A stretch of 64,000 bases of DNA, from assembly GCA_001799285.1 (NCBI GenBank), contig MGTD01000035.1:1-64000 (forward strand). The letters run 5' to 3'. Under the pieces are notes generated by a model. It was not told the origin of the DNA and ran no database searches. It saw nothing but the letters and a program-made list of their open reading frames with translations. This DNA comes from Deltaproteobacteria bacterium RIFOXYD12_FULL_56_24 (GTDB lineage: Bacteria > Desulfobacterota > Desulfobulbia > Desulfobulbales > Desulfurivibrionaceae). Shown piece after piece: positions 32,962 to 35,585 of this stretch. Numbering within the stretch: position 1 is the stretch's first letter; every line of letters starts with the position of its first letter. A program made the position numbers and the translations under genes.

Positions 32962-33852
32962 TCACAACTCCAACAGGCGATGGTTGATCTCGATACCCAC
33001 CATGGCTCCCTGGCCGGCGGCGATAATGGCCTGGGCCTTGCCCGTCTTCAGGGCGCCCAGAGCAAAGAGATTTTTTACCGAGGTTTCGCAGGCATGATCG
33101 GTTGCCAGCTTGGCCCCGTTGCCTTCCCGTTTCAGGGCAAGCCCGGCCAGGCAGGAATCGTTCAAGGTATAACCATAACTGAGCATTACCACCTCGCAGG
33201 CAACCTCCTGCCCATCTGCCAGCTTCACCCCGGTCAAGGCCGCCTCGCCAAGAAATTCCTGCGGCATTCCGGCCTTAAAGGCAATAGCATCCTCAGCCAA
33301 CAGCTCGGCATGGTCATCCGGCAGAAGCCCGGCGGGCAAAACAAGAGTAATGTCCGGGGTGAACATCTGTCGCATGGCAAAGGCGAGGCGCATGGCGTCC
33401 AGAGAATCGCCAATAATGACGAGTTTCCTGCCGGTGGTGCGGTAGCCGTCGCAGTCGACACAGGTAAAGACCGTCCGGCTGAAGAATCTGTTCATCCCCT
33501 TGATCTTCGGCGGATTCTCCACGGCCCCGGCGGAAACGATGACATAGGGCGCTTGGTACTGGCCATTTTTGGTGCTGACCATAAAACCATTTTCAACCCG
33601 TAGCGAAACAACCTGCTCACGCCTGAAATCAGCGCCGAAGGATTTGATCTGTCTGATGCCGGTATCAACAAGCTCTTTGCCCGAGATAACTTCAAGGCCG
33701 AGATAGTTTTCAATGTGCAGGGCATGCCGGGTCCGGCCGCCGCCCTGATCGAACAGGATGACCCTGCAGTTGTAACGGGCAAGATGAATGGCGGCCTGCA
33801 AGCCGCCTGGCCCCGCGCCGATGATGATACAGTCGTAGCTGTTTTTTCCCAT
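32962..33852 (-). CDS. Thioredoxin-reductase-like flavoprotein with CVDC centre
   Basis: A 296-residue protein, ATG 33852. FAD site GAGPGGLQAAIHLARY at 12-27; redox Cys131 and Cys134 in FTCVDCDGYRT; C-terminal FAD contact LGALKTGKAQAIIAAGQG. The second nucleotide site reads VIIGDSLDAM instead of the usual GxGxxA (GGGDSA), and the HRR motif that reads the NADPH phosphate is absent. NADPH is thus an unlikely donor; ferredoxin- or other-linked thioredoxin reductases show such losses. Its neighbour upstream is a UxxC thioredoxin, a natural partner. Confidence 0.8.
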   Translation of the reverse strand: MGKNSYDCIIIGAGPGGLQAAIHLARYNCRVILFDQGGGRTRHALHIENYLGLEVISGKELVDTGIRQIKSFGADFRREQVVSLRVENGFMVSTKNGQYQAPYVIVSAGAVENPPKIKGMNRFFSRTVFTCVDCDGYRTTGRKLVIIGDSLDAMRLAFAMRQMFTPDITLVLPAGLLPDDHAELLAEDAIAFKAGMPQEFLGEAALTGVKLADGQEVACEVVMLSYGYTLNDSCLAGLALKREGNGAKLATDHACETSVKNLFALGALKTGKAQAIIAAGQGAMVGIEINHRLLEL

Positions 33853-33940: not shown

Positions 33941-34510
33941 TCAGAGGAGACAATAGGGATAGGCACGCTTGGTCCATTCGCTGTCAGGGAAAGCAACGCT
34001 GAGCTTTTCATAGGCCTCCTTCAACGGCTTGGGATCGTGCGACTGCTTGTAGCGGCAGACACCGGAGAGAAAAACGGCCTCCGGCGCGCTGTCGCTTATG
34101 CCATATCCGGCCCCCAATTGCTCAAACCGGGCCAATGCCTCAGCAAAACGATCATTCTCAAACGCATACTTGCCAAGTCCCAGCAGGAGCGAGGGAATCA
34201 ACTCCTCTGGTCCGAGAAACCCCACGGTTCGGTGATGTTCCTGGGCTTCCGGGCTCAAGGTTATAATAGTGGGGGTCCACTTGACGTTAAACGTGTCCGA
34301 ATAAGGCTTGCTGTCGAAGCCAAGCCGCAGCGGGATAAAATTTTCTTCGATAAAGCTGACAACCTTGCTCTCTGGATACGTAACTGCATCCATCTGTTGA
34401 CAGCCGATTCAGCCAGGGTTGAAAAAATCGAGCAGGATCGGTTTTCCAGCCTTTTGCCCCAGACACAGGGCATCGTCCATTTCCGTGCGCCATTGAATTT
34501 TTGCGGCCAT
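33941..34510 (-). CDS. Thioredoxin-fold selenoprotein (UxxC) with helical C-terminal repeats
   Basis: Translated through an in-frame TGA, the gene runs from ATG 34510, with AGGAGG 7 bases upstream, to 33941: 189 residues. Residue 34 is encoded by TGA (34409-34411) within LLDFFNPG-U-IGCQQMDAVT, exactly the first Cys of a thioredoxin CxxC; Cys37 is the resolving residue. Homology to the thioredoxin fold continues smoothly on both sides (cis-Pro region VKWTPTIITLSP, then a TPR-like tail GVCRYKQSHDPKPLKEAYEK). A hairpin fitting a bacterial SECIS begins 17 nt after the TGA. Standard calling would start at 34393 and lose the active site. Likely reduces peroxides or disulfides with the neighbouring flavoprotein. 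Confidence 0.88.
34374..34391 (-). promoter_or_regulatory. Candidate bacterial SECIS hairpin
   Basis: Minus-strand GGATGC-AGTTAC-GTATCC: a 6-bp stem (one G-U pair) and a 6-base loop with GU at its second and third positions, starting 17 nt after the TGA. Position, loop size and GU agree with the bacterial SECIS pattern that recruits SelB. Confidence 0.75.
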
Positions 34511-34545
34511 GGTTGTCCCTCCTAAGGGGGTTAGGTCTGTCCGGA

Positions 34546-34827
34546 TCACTTCAGCAACTCGTCCACTTCTTCCTTGCCCTTCTCAAGTTCGCGCTGCTGT
34601 TCCTCGTCTTTTTGCAGAAGCAAGGCCTGAAACTCACCGACATGGGTTTTTTCCTCCCGGGCAACCTCGAGAAAAATGGTCTTCAGATTCTTGTCCTTTG
34701 CCAGGTTAGCCATCTGCTCATAAAGGTTGATTGCGTCCAGTTCGGCAATGATCGCTGCCCTGAGGAGTTCTTTGTCCACATCGTCCCTGTGGATTTTCTC
34801 CAGACTAAAAGGGATAGTCGCCAGCAT
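34546..34827 (-). CDS. Small ferritin-like protein (encapsulated-ferritin-like)
   Basis: A 93-residue protein. ATG 34827 is preceded by GGGAGGAAAAAG, so the longer upstream frame is rejected. Two helices carry the metal ligands: LLRAAIIAELDAINLYEQMA and EVAREEKTHVGEFQALLLQK, i.e. E, E..H as in half-ferritin proteins that dimerise to form the di-iron site. A charged tail (QRELEKGKEEVDELL) follows. The form is close to encapsulin-loaded ferritin-like proteins; no encapsulin gene is in the window. It sits 35 bases before the selenoprotein gene. Confidence 0.75.
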   Translation of the reverse strand: MLATIPFSLEKIHRDDVDKELLRAAIIAELDAINLYEQMANLAKDKNLKTIFLEVAREEKTHVGEFQALLLQKDEEQQRELEKGKEEVDELLK

Positions 34828-35063
34828 CTTTTTCCTCCCGAAAAACAATAGTTTTGGCAATGTTAGAGCCAGGTCTCTTGCCAGACAAAAGCGCATAACA
34901 ACGAACGGTCCTTCCCGGCCTTTTCAGAGGGTAGACTTAAGAAGACAAGGGAAAACGGCCAGTATCACTCGACGCCAAGCCCGAGAATTCCCGGCTGAAT
35001 CGCAAGTGGAATAAACCCCGAATCCCGGAGAATCATCCCCCATTCCGTGGGCGGCCTTGGCTG

Positions 35064-35336: not shown

Positions 35337-35585
35337 CTACAGCTGCTCGATATTCTGCCTGAGCTGGCCGATCTGTATCCCCAGCGACACGCATTGCTTG
35401 CCGTCCATGCACTGCTGCGCCTCGGATTCTTCCAGAAAGGTCTTGAGCTCGTGTCCGTCCTTTTTTAGGTCAACGACCCAGGCCTTGTTGTTCGCATCGT
35501 AATCAACCTTGAGGTCGATACCGCAGGCGCCGATCTCAGGAAAAACCCCTTTGATCTTCTCGCACAGCTCCTCTTTGGTGGGCAT
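35337..35585 (-). CDS. Conserved small protein with Cys residues, 82 aa
   Basis: ATG 35585 after AGGAGGATAA, a strong ribosome site. The acidic protein has four cysteines (ELCEKIK, IGACGIDL, QQCMDGKQCVSLG) and a central beta pattern WVVDLKKDGHELKTFLEESE. No known domain is recognised. The strong start and tight spacing to the zinc-ribbon gene support it as a real gene and the first of the minus-strand redox block. Confidence 0.6.
   Translation of the reverse strand: MPTKEELCEKIKGVFPEIGACGIDLKVDYDANNKAWVVDLKKDGHELKTFLEESEAQQCMDGKQCVSLGIQIGQLRQNIEQL

Follow-up and report, generated by a model that had tools for sequence, protein, structure and literature searches.

Known thioredoxin-like selenoproteins

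A 2026 review covers 119 selenoprotein families (PMC13188914). Among them, the nearest to the protein that we describe here is the "thiol:disulfide interchange protein", a PF13098 protein with a UxxC motif whose representative is WP_011366075.1 (PMC13188914) and which was described from Geobacter metallireducens, G. uraniumreducens, and Syntrophus aciditrophicus (PMC1794560). The gene that we analyzed lies in a stretch of 64,000 nucleotides (the window) from a 3.04 Mb Desulfobacterota genome (G000, contig C35). Its product shares with the interchange protein the PF13098 domain, which is its best Pfam domain, the UxxC motif, and a broad bacterial lineage. Compared by description only, the two differ in that the window protein has a TPR-like C-terminal domain and lacks an evident signal peptide (none was evident by eye).

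Selenothioredoxin (Trx, PF00085, UxxC) also has a thioredoxin fold and a UxxC center. In contrast, the window protein is below the gathering cut-off for PF00085 (16.1 vs. 23.5 bits), has the active site NPxUIGCxQM, and carries an added C-terminal domain; it also misses the cut-off of the canonical thioredoxin model TIGR01068 (19.3 vs. 96.8 bits). The VPGUxxT, TsoB, and Trx7/PDZ selenoproteins (NF041382/NF041383, NF045694, and NF041199, respectively) have related thioredoxin_2/7-like domains and give weak HMM matches, but they differ from the window protein in motif or architecture. All of these scores were far below the curated cut-offs (TsoB, 38 bits vs. 805; VPGUxxT type 2, 30 vs. 275; VPGUxxT type 1, 29 vs. 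350; Trx7/PDZ, 15 vs. 300).

DsbD gamma, DsbH, and YbbN have the thioredoxin fold as well, but they are Cys enzymes or, in the case of YbbN, Cys-less, and they are only 14–24% identical to the window protein. YbbN joins a thioredoxin domain to TPR-like helices; its structural match to the window protein has a TMq of 0.42 and an rmsd of 11.9. The window protein is another thioredoxin-fold UxxC selenoprotein, and this kind is already known. On this protein every NCBIfam model stays below its cut-off, and judging from sequence the UxxC thioredoxin-TPR family appears to be uncatalogued among the curated models that we searched, with the nearest published entry known by description only.

An in-frame TGA at the thioredoxin active site

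The gene occupies 33941..34510 on the minus strand and encodes 189 residues with a single selenocysteine (Sec, U34). By direct reading of the window, a Shine-Dalgarno sequence, AGGAGG (34523..34518), stands 7 nt ahead of the ATG at 34510, and AGGAGG- or AGGAG-like sites precede the ATG in many homologues. The frame then runs without an indel through DFFNPG-TGA-IGCQQMDAVTYP, in which the TGA (34411..34409) is codon 34 and opens UIGC (UxxC, residues 34–37), and it closes at the TGA at 33943..33941. A reading made from the sequence alone had pointed out both the in-frame TGA in NPG-TGA-IGC and the AGGAGG ahead of the start, and both are where it had put them. It had also warned that an automatic caller would start at 34393 and delete the active site. 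Indeed, with translation table 11 the start is the ATG at 34393, and the 150-residue product has neither Sec34 nor Cys37. Standard gene callers drop the active site because the in-frame TGA encodes Sec.

The read-through product has two domains. Residues 1–110 (34181..34510, minus strand) form a thioredoxin-fold domain by Pfam (PF13098, 39.9 bits with a cut-off of 27; PF13899, 31.4 bits, also over its gathering cut-off), by the predicted model, and by structural matches. Residues 111–189 (33944..34180, minus strand) form a TPR-like helical domain by predicted helices and by matches to TPR_16/TPR_6, which are weak and are seen in many members. The C-terminal end, EWTKRAYPYRLL, is conserved, and in the window protein it reads ...YCLL. 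AlphaFold2, run on the whole read-through product with Sec modelled as Cys, gave a mean pLDDT of 96.5 and a pTM of 0.90, with a thioredoxin topology and helices across residues 101–188 (pLDDT 93–98). Among solved structures, the closest are those of DsbD gamma, DsbH-like proteins, and YbbN.

Conservation of the TGA codon

A search of 58 relatives returned homologues at 53–86% identity, nearly all of them full length and each with one internal TGA. In translations, U was kept at the same codon in all 24 order-level homologues. We then ran a profile built from 19 sequences (A1) on 395 Desulfobacterota genomes; among the matches listed (at least 115 bits), 75 genomes have a TGA-form homologue over most of the protein. 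Across 100 distinct genes from the fetched loci, the codon for residue 34 is TGA in 89, TGC in 9, ACG in 1, and GAG in 1, and UxxC is kept in all 89 Sec genes. Three loci (L091, L092, and L094) have TGC at the TGA column with an intact CxxC, while the other relatives from family f72 have lost one or both cysteines. As a check on the TGA, the sequence-only reading had proposed looking for Cys or Sec at residue 34 of homologues: besides Sec in the 89 distinct genes, Cys is found in a few (those of G337, G071, and G173). Genomes of family f54 gave mostly TPR-only matches and no full-length member, and the plasmid records that we searched gave weak relatives only.

One rival reading is that the TGA arose through an error in sequencing or assembly, or that a nonsense mutation has turned the gene into a pseudogene. 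The window does come from a single metagenome-assembled genome, and the family does decay at times, as a copy in G024 (L157/L039) is split across two frames shortly after the TGA, by either a pseudogene or an assembly error. Against this, dozens of independent assemblies, at widely differing levels of identity, have the same TGA codon, which excludes a read error at 34409–34411, and the protein is strongly conserved on both sides of the codon, in keeping with the homology-like sequence that had been noted there. We give this explanation practically no chance.

A second possibility is that the functional product is just the C-terminal open reading frame from ATG 34393 (150 residues, TPR-like, no active site) and that the rest is a leader. 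This ATG comes soon after the TGA and is the one that a caller would pick, and the f72 relatives that lack one or both cysteines indicate that a redox-dead version can persist. However, AGGAGG precedes 34510, whereas the bases ahead of 34393 (GGCTGTCAACAG) contain no comparable site. Also, the first 33 residues and the UxxC are conserved, the read-through product models as one complete thioredoxin fold, and the Cys forms run full length in a single open frame. This seems very unlikely. By comparison of homologues, the TGA at 34411..34409 is a genuine selenocysteine codon of a predicted thioredoxin-like enzyme that is spread across Desulfobacterota.

Some genomes have more than one TGA-containing paralogue, UGAC variants included (L106, L105, and L107; G360 and G431). 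Two other TGA-containing thioredoxin-like families are separate from the UxxC-TPR family: one of about 110 residues with GUPHCHRL (L201 and L202; in L201, a hairpin, GGTC-CGTGA-GACC, lies 3' of the TGA), and one with WUAFC and a hydrophobic N-terminus (L203).

A covarying hairpin downstream of the TGA

A bacterial SECIS (bSECIS) hairpin at 34374..34391 (minus strand), with the stem GGAUGC/GUAUCC and the loop AGUUAC, is identified by folding, by a synonymous-codon null, and by compensatory changes. Its arms are GGATGC at 34391..34386 and GTATCC at 34379..34374, with AGTTAC between them; it starts 17 nt 3' of the TGA, which is exactly where the sequence-only reading had drawn it, GU in the loop included. 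An additional U-A pair (34392/34373) is possible. The hairpin folds at −8.8 kcal/mol (z = −3.6), and none of 200 shuffles was equally good.

A search of Rfam with E values up to 10 found no SECIS family in this region, and so we judged the hairpin against the published structural model and on covariation. The model calls for a loop of 3–9 nt, a stem of 4–16 bp, a G within the first two loop positions, and an apical loop 16–37 nt from the UGA (PMC13188914). The hairpin agrees on each point: its loop is 6 nt, its stem is 6–7 bp, G is at loop position 2, and the apical loop is at 23 nt. All 89 distinct Sec genes have that G.

If codons are redrawn synonymously and the stability of the hairpin is compared, the Sec genes have a mean z of −2.13 (n = 89) vs. 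−0.09 for the non-Sec genes (n = 11), and other segments of the Sec genes have z of about 0. Taken one by one, about half of the Sec genes miss P < 0.05 in this comparison, although the set as a whole passes. Among 53 distinct sequences, 94.7% of the cells for the six stem pairs are formed, vs. 23–63% in slid controls, and compensatory double changes occur in four of the six pairs (18 cells; none of 500 shuffles reached this count). The stem varies between families: GGAAGC/GTTTCC or GGAAAC/GTTTCC in f43, f91, and f63; GGGTGC/GTACCC in f21, f29, and f40; and GAATACG/CGTATTC in f41. Three divergent members (L142, L150, and L109) are without the canonical stem. The SECIS element that had been proposed is present, with G at loop position 2, and it covaries.

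The swap of U-A to A-U in the stem alters both of the codons that it spans, and D41E and Y45F are coupled: F45 is found in 5 of 6 cases with E41 vs. 1 of 83 without it (Fisher P = 9 × 10−7, uncorrected for relatedness). The swap is found at separate places on the tree. This coupling suggests that base-pairing in the SECIS RNA steers the choice of amino acids beside the active site.

Selenocysteine machinery and a natural cysteine form

The sequence-only reading had named selA, selB, selC, and selD as genes to look for, and the source genome contains all four. The scores for selA (609 bits), selB (359 bits), and selD (386 bits) are each over the cut-off, and selD has its own in-frame TGA. The tRNA-Sec (selC) has the anticodon UCA and is also over the cut-off (70.4 bits).

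Among 64 genomes that we tested, selA is over the cut-off in 58 and selB in 58. Four genomes with a non-Sec form have neither gene over the cut-off (G337, G423, G249, and G332), and five others retain the machinery (G071, G271, G173, G405, and G370), so the loss of Sec from this gene does not require the loss of the pathway. Three Sec-form genomes are short of one gene (selA is partial in G205, and selB is missing from G335 and G391), which we read as incomplete assemblies.

The clearest natural Cys form of the selenoprotein is in G337 (family f41, genus g218). It has TGC and CVGC instead of UxxC, its stem is disrupted, and selA and selB have no match above the cut-off. Its congener G409 has kept the TGA, the hairpin, selA, and selB. 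The Sec/non-Sec label needs three changes on the tree, which has several long branches; the placements other than that of G337 are unsure. As G337 sits inside a Sec clade, its change looks like Sec to Cys. The family is a clean natural experiment: in one genome, where selA and selB are undetectable, a Cys codon stands in place of the UGA and the SECIS stem has been lost, and the congener keeps both.

These data also bear on a third explanation, that the UGA is read through as another residue, such as Trp by near-cognate suppression, rather than as Sec. UGA can be leaky in bacteria. But homologues that keep the motif intact align Cys, rather than Trp, with the TGA; the genome has the Sec machinery, and the SECIS covaries; and in the best Cys case neither selA nor selB is detectable. 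We consider non-Sec read-through to be extremely improbable and insertion of Sec to be very probably the explanation for the codon.

Gene neighborhood

Downstream of the selenoprotein gene is a thioredoxin-reductase-like flavoprotein with a CVDC motif (32962..33852, minus strand), which we recognized from synteny and from TIGR01292 (129 bits, below the cut-off of 343). It is usually 3' of the selenoprotein gene, with linkage within the genus only. On the 5' side, again within the genus, lies the gene for an 82-residue protein; some genomes also have an EncB-like ferritin there. In the window the latter is an EncB/encapsulin-type ferritin-like protein (34546–34896, minus strand; NF058679, 57.8 bits, below the cut-off of 90), and in L137 and L139 a similar gene lies ahead of the one for the selenoprotein. 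We rejected a function based on the operon because the neighbors cluster within the genus only.

Outside the genus, no neighbor is generally conserved except for the 82-residue protein (35337–35585, minus strand). It has conserved cysteines (GxCGI...CxxGxxC) and no Pfam or NCBIfam match. In four distant families (G209, G034, G030, and G208), as well as in the window's genus, its gene adjoins the selenoprotein gene or is within 3 kb of it; the loci with this protein beyond the window are L133, L169, L170, and L131.

Proposed function

The gene very probably encodes a cytosolic, Sec-containing thioredoxin-like thiol:disulfide oxidoreductase with a UxxC center, in which Sec is inserted by way of SelB and the hairpin. 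SelB, with GTP and Sec-tRNA-Sec, would bind the hairpin just 3' of the UGA and place Sec at residue 34. From the conserved motif and the fold, Sec34 would make the nucleophilic attack and Cys37 would serve as the resolving residue, which is the arrangement in other selenoproteins with a thioredoxin fold. The fused TPR-like domain probably docks a partner or a substrate. In this genus, the flavoprotein beside the gene might conceivably be the reductase. More tentatively, and with some doubt on our part, the gene may represent an undescribed, phylum-wide family of Desulfobacterota selenoproteins (UxxC thioredoxin plus TPR-like) that works with the 82-residue cysteine-containing protein.

As annotation with the standard code truncates the gene and loses the catalytic center, roughly one in five of the Desulfobacterota genomes sampled would have a mis-annotated redox enzyme. 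A curated model would mend this annotation and add to what is known of the selenoproteomes of sulfate reducers and related organisms.
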